Shown one piece after another: positions 6,560 through 26,564 of a stretch of 64,000 nucleotides of DNA (the first letter of the stretch is position 1; the number at the start of each line of letters is the position of its first letter). The DNA comes from Bacillota bacterium (lineage in GTDB: Bacteria > Bacillota > Syntrophomonadia > Syntrophomonadales > DTU052), in the NCBI GenBank assembly GCA_029781825.1, contig JAKOVY010000110.1, positions 41,938 through 105,937 of the forward strand. Reading direction: 5' to 3'. Both the position numbers and the translations under genes were made by a program. A model generated the notes under the pieces. The model had not been told where the DNA came from. It saw only the letters and a list, made by a program, of their open reading frames with translations, and searched no databases.

Positions 6560-7555
6560 ATGGACATTGACAGCTACTTGCCCCGTATTCATGAGCTGCT
6601 GGTGCAAGAAGTTCTATCAGGTTGGGAACCGGTAGATAGAGTGATGCTGCAGCCGCTGCAGATGCCGGGCAAGCTGATACGGCCGCGGCTGGTTCTGCTG
6701 AGCAGCGGACTGTTCGGAGAAATCAGTGAGCGGGCAATTGATGTAGCGATTGCCATCGAGTGTATCCATACGGCATCGTTGGTTCATGATGATATCGTCG
6801 ACGGTGCCTCTTTGCGGCGGGGAGTCCCCACCATAAACCACCTCTTCGATTCTCATACCGCAGTTCTGGCCGGAGACCATCTGTTTGCCACTGCTTTTGA
6901 AATCTTGGCCCGCTGCCAGCTCACCGAAGTGCTGAGCGAAGTGACTCGAGCCATCAAGCAGATGTGTGCGGGGGAGATAGCTCAGGACCTTAACCTGTTT
7001 AACACCGGCCTGTCGGAAAAAGATTATATGCGAAACATATTCGGAAAAACTGCCAGCCTTTTCGGTGCTGCCTGTCGATGCGGCGCCCTGGTTGCCGGGG
7101 CTCAACCGCAGGATGTTAGGCAGATCGGTCTTTTTGGAGAACATCTGGGGTATGCCTTCCAAATTGCCGATGATGTCATGGATTTTTGCGGCGAACCGGG
7201 AACCCTGGGCAAACCCTGCGGCGGGGATTTGAGAAATGGGATCATCACCCTGCCGGTTATAAGGGCACTGGCAGTATCAGAACACCGACGGGAACTGTTG
7301 CTCATCATAGAATCCAACCAATTGCAAGCCGATACGATAAACCGTGTTATCGAGATCTTAAAAGACTGCGGAGCCATTGAATACGCTGCCGCATGCGCCA
7401 TCAACTACTGCCTGGGTGCCATCCGTCTCCTGGAACCATTTCCCCAGTCTCCGGCCCGCAATGAGCTGGTTCGTCTCTGTTCCACCCTGATCACCCTTCC
7501 GGGTTTGGAGGGTAAAAGCTCCCGAGAAGTATGGAACATGCTGGTGGAGGTATAG
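6560..7555 (+). CDS. hepT: Polyprenyl (heptaprenyl-type) diphosphate synthase
   Basis: FARM 'LVHDDIVDGASLRRG' and SARM 'FQIADDVMDF' Asp-rich motifs. Confidence 0.85.
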   Translation: MDIDSYLPRIHELLVQEVLSGWEPVDRVMLQPLQMPGKLIRPRLVLLSSGLFGEISERAIDVAIAIECIHTASLVHDDIVDGASLRRGVPTINHLFDSHTAVLAGDHLFATAFEILARCQLTEVLSEVTRAIKQMCAGEIAQDLNLFNTGLSEKDYMRNIFGKTASLFGAACRCGALVAGAQPQDVRQIGLFGEHLGYAFQIADDVMDFCGEPGTLGKPCGGDLRNGIITLPVIRALAVSEHRRELLLIIESNQLQADTINRVIEILKDCGAIEYAAACAINYCLGAIRLLEPFPQSPARNELVRLCSTLITLPGLEGKSSREVWNMLVEV

Positions 7556-7557
7556 TC

Positions 7558-8616
7558 GTGCCGGTCGCTGGTCGGTTGCCCTGGCTTTACAACTACCTGA
7601 GACTCATTATTCCCTGGGTGGAATCGGAACTCCGACAGCTGACTGCGAGGGCAAGCTTAATTGAGGATGACCAATTGCGTCTTCAAGCCCTGAGCAGTCT
7701 GAAGACAAAAGCCTTTCACTGTTATGGCGGTTCAGTTATGGCTTTATTGGGACCTCGCAACAGTTGGCAGGATTTAGTGGTCCTGATGACCTCCTTCCAA
7801 AGCATATCCGATTACCTTGACAACCTCTGCGACCGCATGGGCGTAAGAGACCAGCACGCTTTTTACCGCCTCCACGATTCAATGCTGGCCGCTGCCACCC
7901 CGGGGGTGAGGCCGGCGGACTATTATGACCGGTATGAAGGGCACCGGGAAGAGGGTTACCTCTCGTATCTGGTAGCCCGCAGTCAGAGCGTAATCGCTTC
8001 CCTGCCCGGCCAGGAGCACGTTCACGGCCGTGTTGAGCAGCTAATCCGCCACTACATCAACCTGCAGGCCCTAAAACACCTTTCCCCGGAAGAGCGTTGC
8101 TACAGGCTAAAAGACTACATATACAGCAAGGTTGGTATCCCTCCGGGTTTTGAATGGTGGGAAATGGCGGCCGCTACCGGTTCAACCCTGGGAATGTTTG
8201 CCCTTTGGGCTGCAGCGGCCTGCCCTGATTGCGATTTATACCGGGCGGAACAGATATTTGAAGCCTACTTTCCCTGGATATGCGGGCTCCATATACTGCT
8301 GGACTACATAATAGACCAGGAGGAAGACGCGAAAGAGGGCGATTTAAACTTCATATCCTTTTACCCGCGGAAAGAAGCAGGGTGGGAGGCTCTGCACAAC
8401 TTTGCCGGCAAAGCCCTGGAGCGAGCCATCGACCTACCCAGTAAGGGGCTACATTCCCTGGTAGTTACCGGTCTCTTGGCTATGTACCTAAGCGATTCCA
8501 AGGTAAAGGAACAGGGTTATTCAAGACGGGCGCGGCAGCTTATAAAAGGCACGGGTAAAAGGGGGCTCGCTCTCTATTACCTGTGCCGGGCAGTACGACG
8601 GCGGAAAGGCATTTAG
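7558..8616 (+). CDS. ytpB: DUF2600 / YtpB-type tetraprenyl-beta-curcumene synthase homologue
   Basis: 'YLDNLCDR' Asp-containing motif, 'HILLDYIIDQEEDAKEGDLNFISFY'; GTG start 3 nt after hepT stop. Confidence 0.85.
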   Translation: MPVAGRLPWLYNYLRLIIPWVESELRQLTARASLIEDDQLRLQALSSLKTKAFHCYGGSVMALLGPRNSWQDLVVLMTSFQSISDYLDNLCDRMGVRDQHAFYRLHDSMLAAATPGVRPADYYDRYEGHREEGYLSYLVARSQSVIASLPGQEHVHGRVEQLIRHYINLQALKHLSPEERCYRLKDYIYSKVGIPPGFEWWEMAAATGSTLGMFALWAAAACPDCDLYRAEQIFEAYFPWICGLHILLDYIIDQEEDAKEGDLNFISFYPRKEAGWEALHNFAGKALERAIDLPSKGLHSLVVTGLLAMYLSDSKVKEQGYSRRARQLIKGTGKRGLALYYLCRAVRRRKGI

Positions 8617-8707
8617 TCGTCACTGGTTGTGGCGGGACCTCAACTTGCGGCCTGCTTCCCGTAAATATATAATGTGACTTAGCATCGAAGGGGAAGAGGA
8701 GGACCCT

Positions 8708-12603: not shown

Positions 12604-13488
12604 TTGTTCAAGACTTATGTCAAAGTAGTTGAGAACCGGAATCTTTCCCGTACCGCCGAGGAGCTTAATCTTTCCCAACCGGCGGTCAGCAAGCAGATAC
12701 AGGCTCTGGAAGAGATATATGGAGTGCTGCTTCTGGAAAGATCCGGCCGCAAGTTGAAGACTACCCCGGCCGGTGAGGCTCTCTATAACTGCGCCCAGGA
12801 GATCCTTAGAGCATTGGAAAAGACGGATCAGATTATGGAGGAGTTATCGGAGAGCCGCAGGGGGAGATTGATGCTGGGTGCCAGTACCATACCCGGACAG
12901 TATATTCTGCCCCAGTACTTAAAGAGTTTTAAGGACAGGAACCCCAATGTCAACATCTTGATGAAGATTGCGGACACCGAGAGCATCTACAGACAAGTAG
13001 CCGAGAGAGAATTGGATCTGGGGGTGGTAGGCGCCTGGATACCCAACAGCAAAGTGGACGGCTTCAAATGGATGGAGGACGAACTTATAGTCCTTGTTTC
13101 AGCACATCATCACCTGGCGGGTCGCAGCGAGGTTGACCCGAAAGAACTCATTGCGGAGAAGTGGGTCTTCCGGGAAAAGGGTTCGGGGACCCGAATGGCC
13201 ACTGAGGATATGCTGGCCGATTTGGGGATACGAGCGGCGGACCTCGACATACAGGTGGAGGTGGGCAGCACCGAAGCAGTGGTGTCCGCGGTGGAAGCCC
13301 AACTGGGTCTGGCTTTGGTTTCCCGGTATGTAGCCTCGCAATGGACCCGGAATGATAAGTTGGTGGCTCTTCCGATTGCCGGAGGAACCGCCAAACGAGA
13401 TATATATGTTATTTATCCCCGACAGAAAAACCGCCGCCGTACAGTCGACAATTTCCTCGATTTTCTCAAAACAAATCCTGCACTGTAA
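12604..13488 (+). CDS. LysR-family transcriptional regulator
   Basis: N-terminal HTH 'FKTYVKVVENRNLSRTAEELNLSQPAVSKQIQALE'; TTG start. Confidence 0.9.
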   Translation: MFKTYVKVVENRNLSRTAEELNLSQPAVSKQIQALEEIYGVLLLERSGRKLKTTPAGEALYNCAQEILRALEKTDQIMEELSESRRGRLMLGASTIPGQYILPQYLKSFKDRNPNVNILMKIADTESIYRQVAERELDLGVVGAWIPNSKVDGFKWMEDELIVLVSAHHHLAGRSEVDPKELIAEKWVFREKGSGTRMATEDMLADLGIRAADLDIQVEVGSTEAVVSAVEAQLGLALVSRYVASQWTRNDKLVALPIAGGTAKRDIYVIYPRQKNRRRTVDNFLDFLKTNPAL

Positions 13489-13671
13489 ACACCTTCCTAA
13501 TAGGCATGCTCTGTGCCGGTTCGCATACGTAAAAATAACACTTGTTTTTTTCCCGGTATTTTGTTAGAAATATAATCTAAGTGCTATGTTCAGCGCAGGC
13601 TTTCTTTTTTAAGGAGAGCCAATGTCTAGTATCAATCCGGATGGGAACTATTATAGGGAGGAGGTTATACT

Positions 13672-14781
13672 TTGGCCGTAATTGGGATGAAGGAGGCCAA
13701 AAAACTGCAACAGACCTACGGCACCCCTCTAATGGTTGTATTCAGGAGGGAGATCGAGGACCGATTCCAAATGCTGAACGATTATCTTCCCCAGGTGCAA
13801 CCGTACTACGCTGTCAAAGCCAACCCCGATCCCGGCGTGCTTGACATCATAAAAAGCTGTAATCCGTACTTTGATGTGTGTTCCAATGCGGAGATCGAAC
13901 TGGTAAAAAGCAGGGGGGTTGATGGAGGAAACCTGATTCACACCCATCCCATTAAGAAAGAGCAAGATATCAAATTCGCGCTGGAACAGGGTATTAGCTG
14001 GTTTGTATTCGATAACGAGTACGAGCTGAATAAGTTTACAAATTACCGGGGACAGGTTAACCTGCTGCTCCGGGTCAGTTTCCCCAATCCCGACTGTGTT
14101 GTCAACCTTTCCTATAAATTTGGGGTTGATCCGGAACAGGCTGTAGATTTGGCCTTGAAAGCCAGGGACATGGGACTGGATGTAAAAGGGCTTTGTTTTC
14201 ATGTTGGCTCACAGAGCCTTAACCCGTATAAGTACGTGGATGCTATCGCTGAATGCCGCCGCATATTCAATCTGCTGGCTTTAAAGGGAATGATTCTGGA
14301 GGTACTGGATATCGGGGGAGGGTTTCCGGCCGAGTACGTTGAGAACATTATTCCGGTCAGGAATTTCTTCCGACCCATAGCAGAGGCATTAAACCGCTTC
14401 TTCCCCAATGTAAGAATTATTGCCGAACCGGGGCGTTTCCTGGTGGCGAATGCAGTAAACCTGATTCTGACAGTCATCGGCAAGTCCAAACGGGCCAACG
14501 TCTGGTGGTACTATGTGGATGACGGTCTTTACGGTTCGTTCTCCGGCAAGGTATTTGACCACTGCGATTACCCGCTGCTGGCGGAACGCCAGGGAGAAAG
14601 GGAGCAGTGTATTGTTGCTGGTCCAACTTGTGACTCTTTTGATATAATTTATCAAAATTCAAGTCTGCCCCGGCTGGAGATTGGCGACATGTTGGTGGTC
14701 CCCGCTATGGGAGCCTACACCGGTTGCAGCGCCACCAACTTCAACGGACTTCCTCCGGCCAAAACAATAGTTATCGATTAG
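13672..14781 (+). CDS. Type III PLP (alanine racemase-fold) ornithine/lysine decarboxylase
   Basis: 'PYYAVKANPDPGVL', 'CFHVGSQSLNPYKY', 'LDIGGGFPAEY', 'AEPGRFLVANA', 'GPTCDSFD'. Confidence 0.88.
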   Translation: MAVIGMKEAKKLQQTYGTPLMVVFRREIEDRFQMLNDYLPQVQPYYAVKANPDPGVLDIIKSCNPYFDVCSNAEIELVKSRGVDGGNLIHTHPIKKEQDIKFALEQGISWFVFDNEYELNKFTNYRGQVNLLLRVSFPNPDCVVNLSYKFGVDPEQAVDLALKARDMGLDVKGLCFHVGSQSLNPYKYVDAIAECRRIFNLLALKGMILEVLDIGGGFPAEYVENIIPVRNFFRPIAEALNRFFPNVRIIAEPGRFLVANAVNLILTVIGKSKRANVWWYYVDDGLYGSFSGKVFDHCDYPLLAERQGEREQCIVAGPTCDSFDIIYQNSSLPRLEIGDMLVVPAMGAYTGCSATNFNGLPPAKTIVID

Positions 14782-14814
14782 AGTGCAAATGCTAATGAAA
14801 GGGGAGTAAGTTCA

Positions 14815-15696
14815 ATGTCCGGTGACATAATCCGTGAGGAATCGATGACGGATCTGTGGAATGTATGGTTCAGCGAGCTGCACCAGAACAGAGTAGGGCT
14901 GACAATCAAAGTTAAACGCCTTCTTTACAGCGGTGAAAGTCCTTTTCAGAGGATAGACATCCTGGACACCTACGAGTTTGGCAAGATGCTGGTGCTGTAT
15001 GGTTCCATCATGATTACCGAGAAAGACGAGTTCATTTATCACGAGATGCTGGGACACGTGCCTCTTTTTACGCATCCTAATCCCAAACAGGTTCTGGTCA
15101 TCGGCGGCGGTGATGGAGGAACAGTCCGGGAGACCCTCAAGCATCCCGAGGTCGAACGAGTAACCATGGTGGAAATTGACGAGTTGGTGGTTCGCAAATG
15201 CCAGGAGTTTTTCCCGGAGGTAGCTGGACAGATCAGCAATCCCAAAACCCGTCTGCTGTTTGCTGATGGGGAGAAATTCCTCAGCTCTACGCAGGAGAAG
15301 TTTGATGTCATTCTCTGTGATGCCGCCGATCCCATTGGGCCGGCCGAGGTCCTGTTCCAGAAGAGTTTTCACCAGATGGCATACGACAGGTTGAATGATG
15401 ACGGCATCTTTGTTACCCAGTCGGAGTCCCCGTATTTCCATCAGCGCACCTTTAAGAAGCTGCATGAGAATCTGTCGCGGATATTCCCTATAGTCAGGGT
15501 TTACTGGGCTTATATCCCGACCTACCCCAGCGCGATATGGAGCTTTACGTTCTGCTCGAAAAAATATGACCCGTTGGCTGACTTTGACCGGGAGCGTTAT
15601 AACAAACTGCAGTTGGAGACCAACTACTACAATGATGAAATACACCATGCAGCCTTTGTACTCCCCAACTTCATCAGAAAACTGATTAACGGATAA
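14815..15696 (+). CDS. speE: Spermidine synthase (polyamine aminopropyltransferase)
   Basis: 'VLVIGGGDGGTVRETLKHPEVERVTMVEIDE', 'DVILCDAADPIGPAEVLF'. Confidence 0.92.
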   Translation: MSGDIIREESMTDLWNVWFSELHQNRVGLTIKVKRLLYSGESPFQRIDILDTYEFGKMLVLYGSIMITEKDEFIYHEMLGHVPLFTHPNPKQVLVIGGGDGGTVRETLKHPEVERVTMVEIDELVVRKCQEFFPEVAGQISNPKTRLLFADGEKFLSSTQEKFDVILCDAADPIGPAEVLFQKSFHQMAYDRLNDDGIFVTQSESPYFHQRTFKKLHENLSRIFPIVRVYWAYIPTYPSAIWSFTFCSKKYDPLADFDRERYNKLQLETNYYNDEIHHAAFVLPNFIRKLING

Positions 15697-15959: not shown

Positions 15960-16035
15960 GGAGCCGTAGTGTAGTGGTTAACATGTCGGCCTGTCAAGCC
16001 GAAGATCGCGGGTTCAAGTCCCGTCGGCTCCGCCA
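15960..16035 (+). tRNA. tRNA-Asp (GTC)
   Basis: Cloverleaf, anticodon loop CTGTCAA, encoded CCA. Confidence 0.95.
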
Positions 16036-16050
16036 TATTTTGATTAACAG

Positions 16051-16126
<76 letters not shown>

Positions 16127-16134
16127 TATAGGAT

Positions 16135-16209
16135 GCGGAAGTGGCTCAGTGGTAGAGCATCGCCTTGCCAAGGCGAGGGTCGCGAGTTCGAATCTCGTCT
16201 TCCGCTCCA
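16135..16209 (+). tRNA. tRNA-Gly (GCC)
   Basis: Cloverleaf, anticodon GCC, encoded CCA. Confidence 0.95.
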
Positions 16210-16222
16210 GTTAAGAATTACG

Positions 16223-16246
16223 GCCGTTCGCAATGAACGGCTTTTT
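16223..16246 (+). terminator. Intrinsic terminator of first tRNA unit
   Basis: GCCGTTC-gcaat-GAACGGC-TTTTT. Confidence 0.85.
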
Positions 16247-16294
16247 ACACTTAAGCTTCAGGTATGGCGGCAGGTCGGGCGCCAGGGGCAGTTC

Positions 16295-16323
16295 TTGACT
16301 CGCCGCGGTGCCTGGGATATAAT
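16295..16323 (+). promoter_or_regulatory. Sigma70-type promoter of tRNA Cys-Leu unit
   Basis: TTGACT-N17-TATAAT, ends 17 nt before tRNA-Cys. Confidence 0.85.
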
Positions 16324-16340
16324 TAAGCTTGCTGAAATGA

Positions 16341-16415
16341 GGGCGGATGGCGAAGTGGAAACGCTGCGGTCTGCAAAACCGCCATTCACCGGTTCGAATC
16401 CGGTTCCGCCCTCCA
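16341..16415 (+). tRNA. tRNA-Cys (GCA)
   Basis: Cloverleaf, anticodon GCA, encoded CCA. Confidence 0.95.
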
Positions 16416-16438
16416 TTTTTGTATTCTGCATAAGACGT

Positions 16439-16527
16439 GCCCGGGTGGCGGAACAGGCAGACGCAACGGACTTAAAATCCGTCGGCCGGTGACGGCCGTG
16501 CCGGTTCGAGTCCGGCCCCGGGCACCA
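16439..16527 (+). tRNA. tRNA-Leu (TAA)
   Basis: Class II tRNA with long variable arm, loop CTTAAAA, encoded CCA. Confidence 0.95.
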
Positions 16528-16571: not shown

Positions 16572-17063
16572 TCAGATTTCAGGTGGTCGCTCCATCCCCC
16601 CAGCTTTTCTTGAATCCAATTCTGCGCATTCTACCTGCTCTCCCTCAATAGTGCACATTTTATCGCGCGATTTGCAGCTTATTTTCCGGGTCCGGCGTGG
16701 AATGAGGCGGCATTCGGATGAGCGCATGGCATCGGGAATTGCCAGGAATAATAAGATGAGGCAATGTCTAAAGCATTTTGAGGCCCGATTCCTTCCGCAT
16801 GTGGGCCGCAAGAATTCGGGCCAAATCATGTTGAAAGTGCGATGCGGGGGTTTTATTTTTTGGAGAAATTTTTGGGAAAGGCTTGTTTCTGAGGAAGAAT
16901 AACATTTCGCATCCTTCTCCGGGCCTCTTATCTTACCTTTCGACGCCAAGGCTGGTGCCGCCAGTTTGACTGATATATGCTGGGCGTTTATAATTCATAT
17001 TAACACTCCTGCATAACACCCGATTAGCCCAAGTAAAGTCACAATTAAAGAGAGGTGATATTC

Positions 17064-18140
17064 GTGGTTTATGCTGTGATTCTGGCCGGCGGCACAGGTG
17101 AACGGTTTTGGCCATTGTCTAGGCAGGACAACCCCAAGCAGTTCCTGCGCCTCTTCGGAGAGCAGACCATGCTGCAGCAGACGGTGTCACGAGTGGCAGA
17201 TTTGGTTGAACCGGATCATATCTATGTGGTGACTGGACAGCAGTATCATCAGCAGGTTGTGGCTCAGCTATCACAACTCCCACTGCCGAATATCATCTGT
17301 GAACCGTTTGGTCGAGATACCGCCCCTGCCATCGGCCTGGCTGCCGAGTACATTAGTCGCCGGGACCCCGTGGGAACGATGGCGGTTCTTCCAGCCGACC
17401 ATTACATATCCGATGTCCGGGGGTTTCATGAGTGCCTGGCCGCCTCCTTTGATGCCGCTGCCAGCGGGGAATGGTTGGTTACTATAGGAATCCGGCCGTC
17501 GGAACCGGCCACCGGTTATGGGTACATCCGTATGGGCAAGATCAAGGGAGAATATGCAGGCATACCCGTCTACCGCGCTCTGGAATTCAAAGAGAAGCCG
17601 GATATTGAGCGGGCGAGAAAGTACCTTAAGGAAGGCAACTATCTTTGGAACAGCGGAATGTTTATATGGAGAGTGGATCTCATCAGAAGCCTTTATATGC
17701 AGTTTCTGCCCGGCGTTGCCCGGGGGCTGGAGGCTATAGGCAAGAGCCTGGATACTCCGGACCAATCGCAGGTGCTGGTGAGGGAATACCAGAGGTTCCC
17801 TCGGATATCTGTGGATTACGGCATTTTGGAGAAATGCAGCCGGGTGCTGGTGATACCAGCGCGCTTCGACTGGGATGATGTGGGCTCCTGGACCTCCTGG
17901 CAGCAGCACCAGGCGGCGGACGAGAATGGCAATGTCCATCAGGGCCAAAGGGGTGTGTTCCTTGACACCCGGAACAGCTTGATTTACTCGCCTAAGCGGA
18001 TGGTGGCCACCCTGGGGGTGGAGGACCTGATAATTGTGAACACTGATGACTGTCTTTTGGTTTGTCACCAGGACCGGGCCCAGGAAGTCAAAAAGGTGGT
18101 AGAGGAGATGAAACAGGCCGGCTACCATGCGTTTTTATAA
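17064..18140 (+). CDS. manC: Mannose-1-phosphate guanylyltransferase
   Basis: 'VILAGGTGERFWPLSRQDNPKQFL', 'NYLWNSGMFIWR', 'DYGILEKC..VLVIPARFDWDDVGSW'. Confidence 0.9.
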   Translation: MVYAVILAGGTGERFWPLSRQDNPKQFLRLFGEQTMLQQTVSRVADLVEPDHIYVVTGQQYHQQVVAQLSQLPLPNIICEPFGRDTAPAIGLAAEYISRRDPVGTMAVLPADHYISDVRGFHECLAASFDAAASGEWLVTIGIRPSEPATGYGYIRMGKIKGEYAGIPVYRALEFKEKPDIERARKYLKEGNYLWNSGMFIWRVDLIRSLYMQFLPGVARGLEAIGKSLDTPDQSQVLVREYQRFPRISVDYGILEKCSRVLVIPARFDWDDVGSWTSWQQHQAADENGNVHQGQRGVFLDTRNSLIYSPKRMVATLGVEDLIIVNTDDCLLVCHQDRAQEVKKVVEEMKQAGYHAFL

Positions 18141-18167
18141 TTTACAAAGTGAAAGGGATGATACCCA

Positions 18168-19208
18168 ATGATCAATGGATTCTCCGCCAAAGGTATTAAG
18201 CAGATGCTTGACTATATCAATGGTTTGCCTGAACAGCTGGAATACTGTCTGGAGAAGGATTACCGGATACCCACAGCCAGAGGGATATCCAACGTGGTTG
18301 TTGCAGGTATGGGAGGGTCGGCCATCGGAGGGGACGTGCTCCGATGCTGCCTCAACACCAGGAAGTCGGTACCGGTGCTGGTCAGCCGTGATTACCGCCT
18401 GCCGGGATTTGTCGGTCGGGATTCCCTGGTTCTGGCGGTAAGCTACTCCGGCAACACCGAAGAAACCATCAGCGCCTTTGAGGATGCGAGAGCGAAAGGT
18501 GCTCAGATAGCGGTCGTTACCACCGGGGGCCAATTGGGTTCCCTGGCTGAAAAAGCCGGGATTCCTCTCATTACTATTCCGGCCGGGCTGCCGCCCCGGT
18601 CGGCCCTGGGGTATCTTTTTTCACCACTGGCTCTGATAGCAGAGAAGGCTGGACTGGCGGATAGTATGAGTGATGAGCTCCAAGAAACGGCCGCCGTCTT
18701 GAGGGAAATCAGGGAGGAGCTTTATGCGGATGAGCCCGATGAAGCAAATCCGGCTTTTAACCTGGCTCGGGAGCTTAAGGATTGCATCCCGGTGATCTGG
18801 GCTGCCGGCTCCGATTTGGAGGTGGCGGCCATGCGCTGGAAGGGGCAGATTAACGAGAACGCCAAGGCCCCGGCTTATTACAACTGTTTTCCCGAGCTGA
18901 ATCATAATGAGTTTACCGGCCTGGAATGCCCGGAAACGCTGACCAAAAGGATAACGGTGATTATCCTGCAGGCAAGAGAAGAGGACCCGCGGATCGGCCG
19001 CCGGGTGGATATAACCCGTGAAATCCTGGGCGATAGAATCAAGAAATTTTTAACGGTTAAAGCCCGGGGCAGGTCCCGGATGGCTCAACTGTTCAGCCTG
19101 ATGTATACCGGGGATTTTGTAAGCGCGTACCTGGCTGCCATTTATGGCATCGATCCGGTTCCGGTCACCCTGATCGAAGCATTAAAGAAGCGGTTGAAAG
19201 AAAGCTGA
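18168..19208 (+). CDS. Bifunctional phosphoglucose/phosphomannose isomerase
   Basis: SIS domain 'VVAGMGGSAIGGDVLR', 'LAVSYSGNTEETIS', 'ELNHNEFTG'. Confidence 0.9.
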   Translation: MINGFSAKGIKQMLDYINGLPEQLEYCLEKDYRIPTARGISNVVVAGMGGSAIGGDVLRCCLNTRKSVPVLVSRDYRLPGFVGRDSLVLAVSYSGNTEETISAFEDARAKGAQIAVVTTGGQLGSLAEKAGIPLITIPAGLPPRSALGYLFSPLALIAEKAGLADSMSDELQETAAVLREIREELYADEPDEANPAFNLARELKDCIPVIWAAGSDLEVAAMRWKGQINENAKAPAYYNCFPELNHNEFTGLECPETLTKRITVIILQAREEDPRIGRRVDITREILGDRIKKFLTVKARGRSRMAQLFSLMYTGDFVSAYLAAIYGIDPVPVTLIEALKKRLKES

Positions 19209-19251
19209 AGAAAAATTTGCGGATTTCCAAGTGGAATATGGGAGGAATGCC

Positions 19252-20622
19252 ATGATAAGCAGGAACATCTTCCGGCAGTATGATATACGGGGCCTTGTGC
19301 CCGAGGAGTTGGACGATGATACCGTACGCAGAATTGCAAAGGCATTTGCCAGCATGGCTGCAGAAAAGGGGTTGCATAAGGTGGTCCTGGGGAGGGACAA
19401 CCGGAAATCCTCACCGCATCTGCGGGAGGTGGCGGTGGAGGCTCTTACCGATTCCGGTTGTCAGGTGATCGACCTGGGGGTCGTGGTAAGCCCGATGTTT
19501 TACTTTGCGGCCCGGCACTTGGAGATTCCGGCCGGACTAATGATCACCGCCAGCCATAACCCCGGGGAGTATAACGGGTTCAAGGTCCTGATCGGGGAGA
19601 ACACCATATACGGAGACGAAATTCAGAGGTTGTACCGCCTGGCACAGGATGGGGTGTTCACTCCCCAATCCCCTAAAGGCAAGGTAACCAATTTGGATAT
19701 CACCGAAGATTATATAAACAATATTAAACAGAGGATAAGCCTGGGACCCCGCCGTTTAAAGCTCGTTGTTGACTGCGGCAACGGAACGGCTTCCTTCTTT
19801 GCGCCCCGCCTGTTTCGAGAACTGGGATGTGAGGTGGTGGAACTCTACTGTGAATCGGACCCTGATTTCCCCAACCACCATCCCGATCCGGTCAAGGTGG
19901 AGAACTGCCAGGACCTGATAAGAGCAGTAAAAAGCGAAAAGGCCGATCTGGGCATCGGCCTGGACGGTGACGGCGACCGTCTGGGAGTAGTGGCTGAGGA
20001 TGGCCGCATTATCTGGGGAGACTTGCTGATGATTCTATACTGGAGGGAAATCCTGCCCCGCCATCCCGGCGTCGACTGCATTGTCGAGGTGAAATGCTCG
20101 CAGGCCTTGATTGATGAAATCGAAAGGCTGGGAGGGCGTCCCCTGCTGTACAAGACCGGTCACTCGCTGATTAAAGCCAAAATGAAGGAGATAGGAGCCA
20201 TCTTTACCGGTGAGATGTCAGGGCACATGTTTTTCGCCGATGAATACTACGGCTATGATGATGCTCTGTATGCCGCCGCTCGTTTGCTGCGCATACTCTC
20301 CAACACCGACCGGAGTATGAGCCAGCTCCTGGCGGATGTTCCCCAGTACTGGACCACACCGGAAATCAGGGTCAAAAGCTCGGATACTGAAAAGTTCCTG
20401 GTGGTGGAAAAGGTCGGGGAAAGATTTCGCAAAGAATACGAGGTTATCGATGTTGACGGAGCTCGCATAATATTCCCGGATGGCTGGGGTCTGGTGCGGG
20501 CGTCCAACACCGGCCCGGAGTTGATCGTGCGTTATGAAAGCCGGACCGAGGAGGGGCTGAAACGGATAGGGGATGAGCTGTGCAGTTTCCTGAGCAGTTT
20601 AGGTTTGGAGATAAAAGTGTGA
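19252..20622 (+). CDS. Phosphomannomutase/phosphoglucomutase
   Basis: 'FRQYDIRGLVPEEL', 'MITASHNPGEYNGFK', 'GLDGDGDRLGVV', 'GEMSGHMFFAD'. Confidence 0.92.
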   Translation: MISRNIFRQYDIRGLVPEELDDDTVRRIAKAFASMAAEKGLHKVVLGRDNRKSSPHLREVAVEALTDSGCQVIDLGVVVSPMFYFAARHLEIPAGLMITASHNPGEYNGFKVLIGENTIYGDEIQRLYRLAQDGVFTPQSPKGKVTNLDITEDYINNIKQRISLGPRRLKLVVDCGNGTASFFAPRLFRELGCEVVELYCESDPDFPNHHPDPVKVENCQDLIRAVKSEKADLGIGLDGDGDRLGVVAEDGRIIWGDLLMILYWREILPRHPGVDCIVEVKCSQALIDEIERLGGRPLLYKTGHSLIKAKMKEIGAIFTGEMSGHMFFADEYYGYDDALYAAARLLRILSNTDRSMSQLLADVPQYWTTPEIRVKSSDTEKFLVVEKVGERFRKEYEVIDVDGARIIFPDGWGLVRASNTGPELIVRYESRTEEGLKRIGDELCSFLSSLGLEIKV

Positions 20623-20804
20623 AACAGCCCCAAAGAGTGAGATTTTACCGCTCCTCTGGTTTGCTTGGCACCAATGATTGTTTCTAAAATAAATTTGGAA
20701 AGACATGTAAAGGAGGTGTTATACTCGGTATTCCTCGGGGTTGAGTTAAAGGTTGCATTGCTTTGTCCGGGACATGCTACTTTATAATCTTTGGGGGTGA
20801 TGTG

Positions 20805-21977
20805 ATGAATCGCTACTTGATGATTGGTACCTATGTGCCAATTAAGTGTGGGATTGCAACGTTCTCTAAGGATTTAAAGGATAGTCTTTGTTCCCGGGGT
20901 GAAGACGTAAGGATTGCGTCGGTGAGCGACTCCAAGTACCTTTATCCTTTCGAGGTGGTCTACTGGTTAAGCAAGGAGCGGCGTTCCGATTACACCGGGT
21001 GTGCCAGCTGGGTCAACAGGTCGCGTGACATCGATGTGGTTATAATTCAGCATGAGTACGGTATATATGGGGGAGAAGACGGCGAATTTATACTCGATTT
21101 TGCTGCCCGGCTCCAAAAGCCTATCATGCTTGTTGCTCATACAGTCCTTCCTCGACCATCAGCCCATCGCCAGGAGGTGTTTAATCGACTGGCGGGTTAT
21201 GCCACGGCTGTGGTGTGCATGACAAATCGGGCCCGGGACCTCTTGCTGGGACCGGTTTACAGCCTTCCGCCCAACAAGGTTCACGTTATTCCCCACGGCG
21301 TTCCCCAGTTCCAGGCCAAGGACCGGGATGTTCTAAAAGAACAGTATGGATACAAGGGACGACGCATAATTACCACCTTCGGCCTGATTGGGCCCGGGAA
21401 GGGCCTGGAAATAGGAATCAGGGCTTTGCGTCGGGTGGTTGACCGGTATCCTGACTGTCTGTATATCATTGCGGGCAGTACCCACCCCAATCTTCTTAAA
21501 CAGGAGGGGGAGAGGTACCGGGAAGAGGTTATGCGGCTGGTTTCCGAGCTGGGGATGGAAAACAATGTTGTGTTCATTAACCGCTTCCTGGATATGGAGG
21601 AATTGGGAGACTGCCTCTACATGACTGATGTATATCTAAGTCCGTATCCCACCCTTGATCAGGCTGTTTCCGGCACCCTGTCCTTTGCTGTTGGTTGCGG
21701 GAGAGCCACAGTGGCTACTCCTTATGAATACGCCCGTGAGCTTCTGGCAGAGGGGAGGGGTTTGGTGGCCAGGGATGCATCACCTGAGGCTCTGGCTGAG
21801 CTTCTGGATGCGGTACTGGGAGATCCTGAGTTCCAGGCTGCTTTGGAAGCGAAAGCCTGGGAATTTGGGAAGACCTTGACCTGGAACAGTGTTGCAGGTT
21901 ATTACAGCCGGGTAGCCGACGAGGCGATTATGCAATACGGGCTGGAACGTGTTCGGGGAGGAAAAGAACAGGCATGA
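20805..21977 (+). CDS. GT4-type glycosyltransferase
   Basis: 'MIGTYVPIKCGIATFSKDL', 'VVIIQHEYGIYGGEDGEF', 'FGLIGPGKGLEIGIRAL', 'LYIIAGSTHPN'. Confidence 0.85.
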   Translation: MNRYLMIGTYVPIKCGIATFSKDLKDSLCSRGEDVRIASVSDSKYLYPFEVVYWLSKERRSDYTGCASWVNRSRDIDVVIIQHEYGIYGGEDGEFILDFAARLQKPIMLVAHTVLPRPSAHRQEVFNRLAGYATAVVCMTNRARDLLLGPVYSLPPNKVHVIPHGVPQFQAKDRDVLKEQYGYKGRRIITTFGLIGPGKGLEIGIRALRRVVDRYPDCLYIIAGSTHPNLLKQEGERYREEVMRLVSELGMENNVVFINRFLDMEELGDCLYMTDVYLSPYPTLDQAVSGTLSFAVGCGRATVATPYEYARELLAEGRGLVARDASPEALAELLDAVLGDPEFQAALEAKAWEFGKTLTWNSVAGYYSRVADEAIMQYGLERVRGGKEQA

Positions 21978-22969
21978 ACTACAGCCATTTGGCGCGCCTG
22001 ACCTGTGATTACGGTATAATCCAGTTTGCGCCTCACGGCGAGCCCGATATAAACAGCGGGTGTACGACTGATGACAACGCCCGGGCCTTGCTGGTGGCGC
22101 TGAATATGGAGGGCTCTCAGCGTGAAGAATATGCCAGCCTTTACTGCGAGGCGCTGCAGAAAGCGTGGCGCCGGGGTGAGGGATGGCGCAACTGGTGGCT
22201 CCCCAACCGGGGATATGTCACCGATCTGGATTCGGAGGACAGCCAGGGCCGAGCCTTTATGGCCTGCTGTTTTGGGGCTGTTTCGGGATTGCCGGGGGTG
22301 TCGAAAGCCTGCCGGGAAATGGCTGCCGATGCCCTGTCGTTTATTGAGACTTTGGAGTTTCCTCGAAGCAATGCTTACGTCTTAATCGGTTGTACGGTCC
22401 TCGCCCGTGAATTGCCGGAGGATGACCGCCGGATATCCGGCATAATCCAACGTTGTGTTGAGCAGTTGACCGGCCTCTACCAGCGATATAATTCGCCCGG
22501 GTGGAGGTGGTTTGAGGACCGCATGACTTACTGCAATGCCATTCTCCCCCACGCCCTTTTTTCCTATTGCGGCATCAAGGCAGACAAGAAAGTGCAGGGT
22601 ATAGCCCGGGATTCACTGATGTTTCTGGGGGACAGCCTGCTGGCGAAGGGATACTTTACCCCTGTAGGTAACCGAGGGTGGTGGACAAAGGGCAAAAAGA
22701 TACCGCTTTTTGACCAGCAGCCGGTGGAAGCCGGTTCTATGATATTGGCCTGCCGCGAGGCTTTTCGCGTAACGGGGCAGAAGGACTTTCAATCCATGAT
22801 GGAGATCATCTGGGAGTGGTATCTGGGGAAAAACATCCATGATCTGCCCCTGATCAATTCTGAAACCGGGGGCTGTCACGATGGGTTAACCCCCGACGGA
22901 TTAAATCCCAACCAGGGAGCCGAGGCCTTGGTAACCATGCTGTTGTCAAATCAATTGCTGCATTCCTAA
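21974..22969 (+). CDS. Glycan-active protein of probable (alpha/alpha) toroid fold, translationally coupled to GT4
   Basis: 4-nt overlap with GT4; 'CTTDDNARALLVAL', 'GWRNWWLPN', helical repeats; family assignment uncertain. Confidence 0.55.
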   Translation: MNYSHLARLTCDYGIIQFAPHGEPDINSGCTTDDNARALLVALNMEGSQREEYASLYCEALQKAWRRGEGWRNWWLPNRGYVTDLDSEDSQGRAFMACCFGAVSGLPGVSKACREMAADALSFIETLEFPRSNAYVLIGCTVLARELPEDDRRISGIIQRCVEQLTGLYQRYNSPGWRWFEDRMTYCNAILPHALFSYCGIKADKKVQGIARDSLMFLGDSLLAKGYFTPVGNRGWWTKGKKIPLFDQQPVEAGSMILACREAFRVTGQKDFQSMMEIIWEWYLGKNIHDLPLINSETGGCHDGLTPDGLNPNQGAEALVTMLLSNQLLHS

Positions 22970-22979
22970 TCGGTTTATA

Positions 22980-25900
22980 TTATTCGCTTTCATAAACTGC
23001 TCCCCGGTATTTGCGTCTTATTTCTTCGGGGAGCAGGTCTCCAACCCTGCACGTTGCCATGCAGAGATGGGAGTCGGCGGCACCGTAGTATACCAGGAGC
23101 TCATCATCTTCGTACAGTAAATCTTTGTCTTCAGCCGGAACCGCTCCGCAGGTGAAGACTACGTTGCACACCCAGGCTTTGCCGGGAATGCCTATTTCAC
23201 ATTCCGTTTCGGGCGAAAGCACGGGATTGGGAGAACGGTAGAGAAGGCGTTCCGGATCGCGGGCATCAACCAGCATGACTCCCAGGCGATATACCCGATC
23301 CCTGTCCACGCCGTGGTAAATCATAAGCCACCCAAAGTCCGTTTTCAAGGGCTGGGTACCGGCACCGATCTTGACCGAATCCCACATACGCCCGGAACGG
23401 GGCCCCATGATAATGGAATGTCTTCCCCGAGGTGCCGGGAACTTGAGTTCATCCAGGTACGACACCCAGATACCGGGTTCTATGCGATGGTATATGACAT
23501 AGCGGCCTTTGATCTTCTCGGGAAAGAGAATCGCATCCTTATCCCATACATCTTCAAAGGCCAGGCCTTTCCTCTCCCACCGGTCGAACCTGCGGTTGAG
23601 GAAATCGTCAAGGGAGATGGCGGCGGCTGATACCTGAGCGATAACACCATCATAGGCCGTATACATCATATAGATGTAACCGTCGATTACCACGACCCGG
23701 GGGTCTTCAACCCCCTTTTTCTCCTTTGGACCCAGCGGGGTGTATACGGGGTATGGCAGTCGCTCCAGTACCCGGTAACCATCGGTTATCGCCAGACCTA
23801 TCCGGGATATTTCATCATCTCCATACGCCCGGTAAAGGATATAAACCCGGTCTTTAATGCGCAGGGAAGCGGCATTCAAAACATAGCGCGACTCCCAGAA
23901 ATGCTCTTTGATAGGTGATAATATCGGATTTCCCGGGTAGCGAACCAGGCTCTTGGTCGGGGGGAACGGATAGGTATCCTGGGAGACTGCGACCACATTC
24001 TCAGCTGTTGCTCCCAGCACCGCGGTCAGCAGATCCTCATTGGAACGGCCTTCGCCCACCAGTTGAATGGCCTGTTCATCAACCACCGCAGTGTCATAAC
24101 CAAGGGAGGAAAAGATCTCCTCCAGCAGGTCATGGTTAAACCATCGCTCTTCCACATGGCTGGACAGAGGGGTGGGCAATCCCTGGCCGCCTTTGTAGCT
24201 GTAGCTGGCCCAGGTCCAGGCGGAACAGGGAAGGAAGGTCCCATCGGCCAAGGTCTGGCTCAGCCCATAGGATTGCACCATCAGCTCCAGCATTTTGGCG
24301 GCGGACATCCGGCCGGAAGCCTTTAACCTGGCGACCAGTGCCTCAAAAAATCCGACCAGCAGACGGTGATTGGTGTTCTCCATAATATTGTTGACAGAGA
24401 AGGTGCCGGCCCGGTACCAACCTGCCAGGGAATTGCCGATCTTATCCCCCAGATTCCTGCGTTCGCGGACATAGATTCGCCATAAACGCGAGTAGTTGAC
24501 GGATATGGCTGCCTGGCGGACAACCGACAGGCAGTAACGGAGCCGGGGGTACCGACCGCCCACTCCTTTACTGAGCGGACTGGCCAATATCCGAGCTACC
24601 AGTATATTAAAGTTGGAGGTGGTGAGCAGCCGATACGAACCGTGCATGTCCTGATTTCCCAGGATCAGCGGTTTAAGATCAACCTCCTCCATATCTTCAG
24701 GACTTAAGTTTTCAAGAAGCCACTCCTGGGTCTGTTCGATGAACAGCTGGTTTTCCATCAGACCGGCCAGGCTCACGGCATCTCTTACATCCATATCGGC
24801 CACCAGTTTTTGGACATCATGATAACCCCGGGAGATGATCAGGTTCGAGGCGCGAAACTTAATGAGCATCTCCCGCAGGACATCGCTTTTGACCGCCAAT
24901 ACCCGGGGGAATGAAAAGAGATCGAAAATACCTTTGAGAAGCTGGTCAATCCCTTCTTCAGTGTAGAGATCACCAGGAAGGATTTCTTCCAGTATGTTTT
25001 CCAGGTCAGCCATAAACCCGGCCACACCGGCGACCAGTGCGCGTGAGTCCGCATCGCCGGGAAGGTTCAGCCCCTCGTGAACAAACTTGTTGAAACGGTC
25101 TTGATATCGGTTTTGCAATCGGGTAAATACTTCTTCGATCCGAACGGTCGCATTGCCGGGGCCGACAATGGTCTTGGGAAGTATAACCGGAACCCCGGGG
25201 ATGAATTCCATATAATGGGCCGGTACAATTACCGGTCGGGTATCAAGAGCCGCTTGCCGCCAATCCTCGGATAATCCTTCGCTCAGCATGTAGAACGCCT
25301 GTCTTTGCAGTTCTCTGGCCGCCTCGACCGCACCCGGCGGAAATGAATATTGCTCAATCGGGAGTTTATCCGGGGCTGTGAATGTGCCTGCGGTTGTTTC
25401 GGCCAAAAAACCGGCCATACGCCCGTTAAAGAGGGAAGTCAGGCTGATAAGAAGGTCATCAACCGGTATTTCCTTTTTAAAGGCATATGCCAGCAGGTAA
25501 TTATTGACCACGGCGGCCCACAGATGCGGCCCAAAGCTGAAGCGGCTGGTATAGAATTGAACTTCGTCTTTTAAGTGTTCGGCAATGTCCGAGGGGAGCA
25601 GGGAATCCAACAGATTACCGTATTGACTGCACCCGCTTTTGAAGGACCCGACCAGGTCAATGAATGAAAAAGCCGGATTCATTGGGACATCAGAAACGAA
25701 AGGCCGGCCGAAAACATCCAGGTGCTTTAGGATTTGAGGACGGTTTGACCAGTACTTATCATCCCGGGTTATGCACTCAAAAAGTGACAGGGCGTTATCC
25801 TTGAAGACAAGGTCCACCTTCTCCCGGGAAGGCCGCGCCAGTTTACTTTCAAGCTTTACCTCGCAGACGGCTTTGTTCCAACGCAGGGCTCGGGTTATGA

Positions 25901-26564
25901 GCCAGGGATCGATACCGTAGCCTCTAGTAGTATCAGTCCACAGTCTGATATCCTGGCAGTAGTTTTCCAGGAGGTCGTGGCTAACCGCATAAATTCCGCT
26001 GGTGGGATCGGTAACCCGAAAACCGTAAAACACTTCGAGAAGCGGTCCGGTAAAAAGCACGCCTACCGGGTCTTCCAGCTGATGTCGTTGAAAACATCCC
26101 AGAGCCAGGTCATAGTCTTTTTGAATCGGCAGAGCCAACCTCTTTACCCAATCCGGGCGGAAGCCCCGCCCATGTTCCTGCTTGAGATCTGCAGCCAGCA
26201 CTATCAAATCTGCTTCCAGGTAATTGGCGATCTCAATTAAGGCTCTGATGCTGGCGCCCCGGCCATTAATCCCCGGCGCCAATACGTATTCAAAATGCGG
26301 AATAGGAAGGTTTAATCTTTTAATGGCTTCCAATATATCACTGCCGGCAGGATCTCCGATACAGGCGATCATGGTGTTGGGGGATGGCAAGTTTTCCGGG
26401 TTGCTGCACAAAAGCTGCAGCATTTCCAGGAGCGAGGTCTTCTCGTTAAAAAATGGTATACCAACTACTGTGTCAATATGAGCAAATCCCTCGAGGAGGG
26501 GAATCAATTCGCGGACGGTCTCGCTGAAGTGCTTTTCAAAGCTGTTTAAGCTATTGCTGCACAT
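22980..26564 (-). CDS. Multidomain protein: N-terminal GT-A glycosyltransferase, ~550-aa middle region, C-terminal GH130 (mannoside phosphorylase-type) domain
   Basis: N-term 'VVGIPFFNEKTSLLEML...LIVLAADLKQEHG'; C-term 'RYPGNPILSP..FWESRYVLNAA', 'EDPRVVVIDGYIYMMYTAYDG', 'IYHGVDRDRVYRLGVMLVD' typical of GH130. Confidence 0.85.
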   Translation of the reverse strand: MCSNSLNSFEKHFSETVRELIPLLEGFAHIDTVVGIPFFNEKTSLLEMLQLLCSNPENLPSPNTMIACIGDPAGSDILEAIKRLNLPIPHFEYVLAPGINGRGASIRALIEIANYLEADLIVLAADLKQEHGRGFRPDWVKRLALPIQKDYDLALGCFQRHQLEDPVGVLFTGPLLEVFYGFRVTDPTSGIYAVSHDLLENYCQDIRLWTDTTRGYGIDPWLITRALRWNKAVCEVKLESKLARPSREKVDLVFKDNALSLFECITRDDKYWSNRPQILKHLDVFGRPFVSDVPMNPAFSFIDLVGSFKSGCSQYGNLLDSLLPSDIAEHLKDEVQFYTSRFSFGPHLWAAVVNNYLLAYAFKKEIPVDDLLISLTSLFNGRMAGFLAETTAGTFTAPDKLPIEQYSFPPGAVEAARELQRQAFYMLSEGLSEDWRQAALDTRPVIVPAHYMEFIPGVPVILPKTIVGPGNATVRIEEVFTRLQNRYQDRFNKFVHEGLNLPGDADSRALVAGVAGFMADLENILEEILPGDLYTEEGIDQLLKGIFDLFSFPRVLAVKSDVLREMLIKFRASNLIISRGYHDVQKLVADMDVRDAVSLAGLMENQLFIEQTQEWLLENLSPEDMEEVDLKPLILGNQDMHGSYRLLTTSNFNILVARILASPLSKGVGGRYPRLRYCLSVVRQAAISVNYSRLWRIYVRERRNLGDKIGNSLAGWYRAGTFSVNNIMENTNHRLLVGFFEALVARLKASGRMSAAKMLELMVQSYGLSQTLADGTFLPCSAWTWASYSYKGGQGLPTPLSSHVEERWFNHDLLEEIFSSLGYDTAVVDEQAIQLVGEGRSNEDLLTAVLGATAENVVAVSQDTYPFPPTKSLVRYPGNPILSPIKEHFWESRYVLNAASLRIKDRVYILYRAYGDDEISRIGLAITDGYRVLERLPYPVYTPLGPKEKKGVEDPRVVVIDGYIYMMYTAYDGVIAQVSAAAISLDDFLNRRFDRWERKGLAFEDVWDKDAILFPEKIKGRYVIYHRIEPGIWVSYLDELKFPAPRGRHSIIMGPRSGRMWDSVKIGAGTQPLKTDFGWLMIYHGVDRDRVYRLGVMLVDARDPERLLYRSPNPVLSPETECEIGIPGKAWVCNVVFTCGAVPAEDKDLLYEDDELLVYYGAADSHLCMATCRVGDLLPEEIRRKYRGAVYESE

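Follow-up and report, generated by a model that had tools for sequence, protein, structure and literature searches.

A six-gene locus in a syntroph-related member of the Bacillota probably encodes a cytoplasmic module for the synthesis and turnover of an endogenous, intracellular mannoside containing beta-1,2-linked mannose, as judged from gene content, conservation and predicted folds. The locus lies in a 64,000-nucleotide stretch of the genome, here termed the window, and its central component is a single-chain fusion of a GT-A glycosyltransferase, a conserved middle domain and a GH130 beta-mannoside phosphorylase domain. The assignment draws on the position of the fused GH130 as sister to characterized beta-1,2-mannoside phosphorylases, with catalytic and basic residues invariant, and on the fold of the GT-A domain, which is near that of mannosylglycerate synthase and has a homolog encoded close to an MGH1-like hydrolase. 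It is further drawn from the recurrence of GT4, toroid, ManC and PMM genes, the co-occurrence of toroid and GH130, fusions to mannose-6-P isomerase cupins and GH5 mannosidase-like neighbors, while the lack of a recurrent exporter and of transmembrane segments points to a product that stays inside the cell. That the mannoside is a polymer or serves in storage is possible, and less certain than its being an intracellular beta-1,2 mannoside.

Locus layout and GDP-mannose supply

The six mannose and glycan genes are contiguous across positions 17064-26564 of the window (Table 1), just as an earlier note made from the sequence had described them, and in gene order from manC to the fusion gene the intergenic gaps are 27, 22, 140, -4 and 10 bp. 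The overlap of 4 bp is that between the GT4 gene and the toroid start, which are thus translationally coupled, and the 10 bp separate the toroid from the end of the fusion gene, which is convergent with the GT4-toroid pair. No membrane segments were found by hydropathy in the window proteins. A -10/-35-like element (TTGACT-17-TATAAT) is present at 16966-16994, 5' of manC, although such matches in the region do not exceed the number expected by chance, and promoter and terminator scans of the region likewise gave match numbers not above chance. A run of five tRNA genes, for Asp, Phe, Gly, Cys and Leu (15960-16527), lies just upstream of manC, and a polyamine pair, an ornithine/arginine-type decarboxylase followed by spermidine synthase, is found nearby (13672-15696).

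Table 1. Features of the mannose locus, in window coordinates.
Feature	Position	Strand	Basis
manC, mannose-1-phosphate guanylyltransferase without PMI domain	17064 (or 17055)..18140	+	NTP_transferase 8.8e-44, ManC_GMP_beta-helix 1.3e-21
Bifunctional phosphoglucose/phosphomannose isomerase (PGI/PMI)	18168..19208	+	NF006426 1.3e-128
Phosphomannomutase/phosphoglucomutase (PMM/PGM)	19231..20622	+	all four PGM_PMM domains
GT4 glycosyltransferase, predicted GDP-mannose-dependent	20763 (or ATG 20805)..21977	+	Glycos_transf_1 4.4e-13
(alpha/alpha)6 toroid, 331 aa, possible inverting glycosidase	21974..22969	+	AF2 model, Foldseek
GT-GH130 fusion, whole gene, 1194 aa	22980..26564	-	
GT-A domain of the fusion (residues 1-440), nearest in fold to mannosylglycerate synthase (GT78)	25245..26564	-	Foldseek
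Middle domain of the fusion (residues 441-872, ~430 aa), conserved and largely helical	23949..25244	-	conservation
GH130 beta-mannoside phosphorylase domain of the fusion (residues 873-1194)	22980..23948	-	PF04041 3.3e-45

The predicted supply enzymes support the view that the locus can make GDP-mannose and, together with the fusion of GT-A and beta-mannoside phosphorylase domains, the further proposal of the earlier note that mannose would be returned as Man-1-P. The match of ManC to GMP_PMI (TIGR01479, 3e-96) is confined to the GMP part and the cupin isomerase domain is lacking, so that mannose-6-P would come from PGI/PMI. The latter gene, however, neighbors the fusion in just one locus beyond those of the closest relatives, and is hence a local addition outside the conserved unit. 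In a different arrangement (L180, 9284-12544), a single chain of 1086 aa comprises ManC, its isomerase cupin and PMM, and has a GT4-toroid fusion and a GH130 as neighbors.

The GT-A-GH130 fusion protein

Residues 1-872 of the fusion are 100% identical to those of Syntrophothermus sp. DTU052 and 85% identical to those of a Syntrophomonadaceae MAG, and the host group consists of relatives of syntrophic fatty-acid oxidizers. The structural model of these residues (pLDDT 86) was used in a fold search in which the top eight matches were all mannosylglycerate synthase (2y4x/2bo4/2bo7, E to 6e-12), with a target TM of 0.68-0.74 over about 440 columns that include the C-terminal helical part, and in which glucosyl-3-phosphoglycerate synthase and the polyprenyl-phosphate and dolichyl-phosphate transferases ranked lower. 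In sequence profiles the GT-A domain has weak GT2/GtrB similarity, and neither phmmer nor profile searches gave a significant match to GT78 mannosylglycerate synthase, the identity being ~15%. A stand-alone homolog of the GT-A domain (L077) matches the MGS_GT family below the cut-off. At that locus the stand-alone MGS-like transferase gene and an MGH1-like mannosyl/glucosylglycerate hydrolase gene (7413-8699 and 12832-14097) are ~4 kb apart, and the pair is a possible mannosyl/glucosylglycerate locus. Of 32 fusions, 26 retain the putative metal-binding Asp126 and six have lost it, which may leave some of the GT-A domains inactive. Some genomes hold two copies of the fusion, and paralogs with a degenerate GT-A metal motif (N, K or Y for Asp126) occur in L050, L051, L052 and L054.

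The middle domain (441-872) gave no convincing Pfam match and no fold match among the best 50 from Foldseek, and a cyclase-like middle domain was not detected in the fusion, but the residues E453, W783, W785, G792, G793, E805 and W808 are invariant. Single-sequence searches of Pfam, NCBIfam and the PDB with the GT-A part or the toroid yielded nothing usable, whereas profiles and folds gave matches. Neither a fusion of GH130 with a GT nor mannosylglycerate synthase together with GH130 was found described in searches of the literature.

The C-terminal GH130 domain scores 154.9 bits with PF04041 (cut-off 26) and its closest solved relatives are the beta-1,2-mannobiose and 1,2-beta-oligomannan phosphorylases (7fip, 6.1e-56; 9fj8, 1.1e-51). 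All fused GH130s form one clade (100/99), which is sister (100/96) to the clade that contains both of the characterized beta-1,2-mannoside phosphorylases, Teth514_1788/1789. With the NCBIfam equivalog for beta-1,2-mannobiose phosphorylase the domain reaches 237 bits and not the cut-off of 450, and it is therefore close kin of that enzyme in a different equivalog. The residues E953, D954, K1009, H1026, R1027 and H1084 are invariant in 32 fusions, and of these the catalytic Asp D954, the neighboring E953 and the basic H1026, R1027 and H1084 are shared with 9fj8; the three putative Pi-binding positions were assigned by alignment and from general features of the family. In hydrolytic GH130s, Glu replaces the basic phosphate-site residues while the Lys for beta-1,2 specificity is kept (PMC4599007). 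K1009 aligns with a Lys of 7fip and 9fj8, and its putative equivalence to the specificity Lys (Lys199 of BT3780, PMC4599007) is by spacing only. By these sequence features the domain fits a phosphorylase of the beta-1,2 type. An extra, stand-alone GH130 is encoded beside the fusion in Pelotomaculum-type loci (L085-L118). It has R in place of K1009, N in place of D1010 and D in place of H1026, and so probably differs in specificity; the replacements suggest another linkage or an activity other than phosphorolysis.

GT4, toroid and conservation of the module

The nearest solved chains to the GT4 include PimA and other GDP-Man GT4s. Its partner, the toroid, had no match in a single-sequence Pfam search, but AlphaFold (AF2) predicts an (alpha/alpha)6 barrel (pLDDT 91.8), which in Foldseek resembles (alpha/alpha)6 sugar epimerases, GH76 and the exported Yersinia protein YPO2471. 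Invariant acidic residues (D33, D34, E181, D247 and E317) suggest that the toroid is catalytically active, in the simplest case as a glycosidase. The two genes are adjacent nearly everywhere, and in L058, L059 and ten loci of the Pelotomaculum type their products are fused into a single polypeptide. In L039 (6371-7798) the toroid carries a C-terminal mannose-6-phosphate isomerase cupin domain, which in other loci sits on a second, neighboring GT4.

Of 300 genomes sampled from the phylum, 37 encode full-length homologs of the fusion (34-54% identity). Such homologs also occur in many named anaerobes, among them Syntrophomonas, Pelotomaculum, Syntrophaceticus, Thermosediminibacter, Tepidanaerobacter and Fervidicola, and many of the carriers are thermophiles. 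The conservation in other anaerobic Firmicutes that the earlier note had proposed as a check is evident, as the fusion is found across many anaerobic Bacillota, with the fusion, GT4, toroid, PMM and ManC occurring jointly in dozens of genomes in such varied orders and orientations that the clustering is far beyond chance. In 31 named loci the fusion is flanked by 6 kb or more on each side; of these, 29 have the GT4 within 6 kb of it, 24 the toroid, 24 ManC and 20 PMM, and in one PGI/PMI adjoins it. The set that had been called complete thus holds for ManC, PMM, GT4, toroid and fusion, with PGI/PMI falling outside the conserved core. A GH130 is encoded in 64 of 66 genomes with a toroid vs 40 of 234 without one, counts that ignore shared ancestry. 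In addition, GH5 mannosidase-like genes adjoin the module in ten loci and a ManA-like gene, read as such from its sequence, is present in four.

The remaining recurrent neighbors are clade-specific housekeeping genes. A peptidase M3 gene (confined to Syntrophomonas-type loci), PAS kinases (generic) and the riboflavin block by Thermosediminibacter loci (clade-specific) were each rejected as partners of the fusion. The Pelotomaculum-type cluster is also present, with GH130s that are nearly identical, on the MAG contigs L085 and L107, which bear the labels Actinobacteria and Deltaproteobacteria and are probably mis-binned. Across about 80 named loci, the module has no recurrent neighbor of the Wzx/Wzy, polysaccharide ABC exporter, polymerase or initiating sugar-phosphate transferase type, which upholds the claim that an exporter is lacking nearby, for which exporter or S-layer neighbors had been named as the contrary evidence.

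Nature of the product and relation to known systems

In the mechanism that we propose, the GT-A domain and the GT4, both using GDP-mannose, would start and extend a soluble mannoside, and the GH130 domain would add or remove beta-1,2-mannose at its non-reducing end with Man-1-P or Pi, thereby setting chain length and returning Man-1-P to ManC and PMM, while the toroid would trim or recycle the chain. Trimming and remobilization by GH130 are suggested by analogy with the GH94 domain of Cgs, proposed to control beta-1,2-glucan chain length (PMC10901819), and with GT108 (PMC8950772). There is a counterpoint: the linkages formed by retaining GT4 and GT78-like enzymes are alpha, whereas those on which GH130 acts are beta. 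What the phosphorylase half degrades would then not simply be what the transferases make, unless the beta part is built by GH130 itself or the GT-A domain inverts. A second counterpoint, to a storage mannan, is the glycogen synthase (GlgA) that the genome also encodes, and the idea that mannan replaces glycogen in the host was dropped for this reason.

The presence of GlgA, by which storage is already served, is also in keeping with a product that is not a reserve polymer but a small compatible solute or short oligosaccharide of the mannosylglycerate type, extended by GT4 and recycled by GH130 after stress. The closeness of the GT-A fold to mannosylglycerate synthase, the L077 homolog near a mannosyl/glucosylglycerate hydrolase-like gene and the many thermophilic carriers agree with such a solute, which is a serious alternative, yet we consider it rather unlikely, given that the locus has no phosphoglycerate synthase/phosphatase pair, that enzymes of the Teth514_1788 type act on longer beta-1,2 chains and that alpha-glycosides of glycerate are not GH130 substrates. 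Less probable still is that the glycan is a precursor for the cell surface (S-layer, teichoic-type polymer or lipid glycan) whose transporter is encoded elsewhere. GT4s commonly act on lipid acceptors, flippase-family proteins are encoded elsewhere in the genome, and some loci have LytR_cpsA_psr and SLH-domain genes close by, but the export, polymerization and initiation genes sought in the about 80 loci do not recur, and the fusion of a cytosolic phosphorylase to the synthase is hard to reconcile with export of the product.

The description of the locus in the earlier note as an undescribed system was too strong, since the order GH130-guanylyltransferase-GT4-toroid was published in 2014 for Thermoanaerobacter. 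The cluster Teth514_1785-1796 contains GH130s, a guanylyltransferase, a GT4 and the "hypothetical" Teth514_1785 together with an ABC importer and a GH5, and was proposed to salvage imported beta-1,2-mannosides by phosphorolysis to Man-1-P and thence GDP-mannose (Chiku et al., 2014; PMC4264767). L186, from a Thermoanaerobacter-family genome by tree position, encodes a GH130 that is 96.5% identical to 9fj8 (Teth514_1788), and the three genes after it encode a guanylyltransferase-like protein, a GT4 (43% identical to that of the window) and a toroid (35%). This is the order Teth514_1788-1787-1786-1785, which makes the window a variant of the described cluster, and the "hypothetical" Teth514_1785 position is likely a toroid by the gene order in L186. 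The two share a guanylyltransferase, GT4, toroid and GH130s of sister clades, but in Thermoanaerobacter the GH130s are stand-alone and doubled, with an importer and GH5, whereas in the window a single chain joins GH130 to an MGS-like GT-A and the new middle domain, an importer is absent, ManC is of another type, and PMM and PGI/PMI are linked. What is new relative to the published cluster is the fusion with its two extra domains, its breadth and the absence of the importer. Salvage of the Thermoanaerobacter kind is very improbable here, as no sugar ABC importer is found in the window region or among the recurrent neighbors, one SBP_bac_1 protein above the cut-off in the whole genome argues against an imported substrate, the host group comprises fatty-acid-oxidizing syntrophs, and the fused transferase domain points to synthesis.

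The favored reading, of a mannoside made and turned over within the cell, has parallels in other systems. The mannogen of Leishmania is an intracellular beta-1,2-mannan, and its GT108 transferase-phosphorylases (reviewed in PMC8950772) are likewise GH130-fold enzymes that join synthesis and phosphorolysis in intracellular mannan turnover, but they belong to another family and have both activities in one propeller domain, while those of the window would be in two separate domains. Cgs also combines a GT domain, a middle domain and a C-terminal inverting phosphorylase in a single chain, but is a membrane protein with TM helices, uses glucose and not mannose, and consists of unrelated domain families. 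The mycobacterial methylmannose polysaccharide cluster ManT-MmpH makes a self-recycling intracellular mannan (PMC9883506) and pairs a GT4 mannosyltransferase with a glycosidase, MmpH, whose closest relatives are GH125/GH15 barrels; it has methyltransferases and no GH130, and the likeness of toroid and MmpH is an analogy for which homology is not claimed. Mannosylglycerate synthase (GT78), the best fold match of fusion residues 1-440, has the low sequence identity to them given above and is without the two further domains.

Taken further, and more tentatively, the fusion may represent a hitherto unrecognized class of soluble single-chain "mannan synthase-phosphorylase" (GT78-like domain, new ~430-aa domain and GH130) that with GT4 and toroid would constitute a bacterial mannogen in anaerobic syntrophs, a beta-1,2-mannan that is made and remobilized, although we hold this broader proposal to be doubtful. 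Reserves of beta-1,2-mannan are known from Leishmania and its relatives, and the bacterial fold-mates are usually read as catabolic. The locus is a direct test case for an endogenous bacterial beta-1,2-mannan, and the toroid gives the "hypothetical" gene of the Thermoanaerobacter cluster a likely assignment as partner. If the proposal is true, the locus would explain why many anaerobes that barely use sugars keep a GH130.
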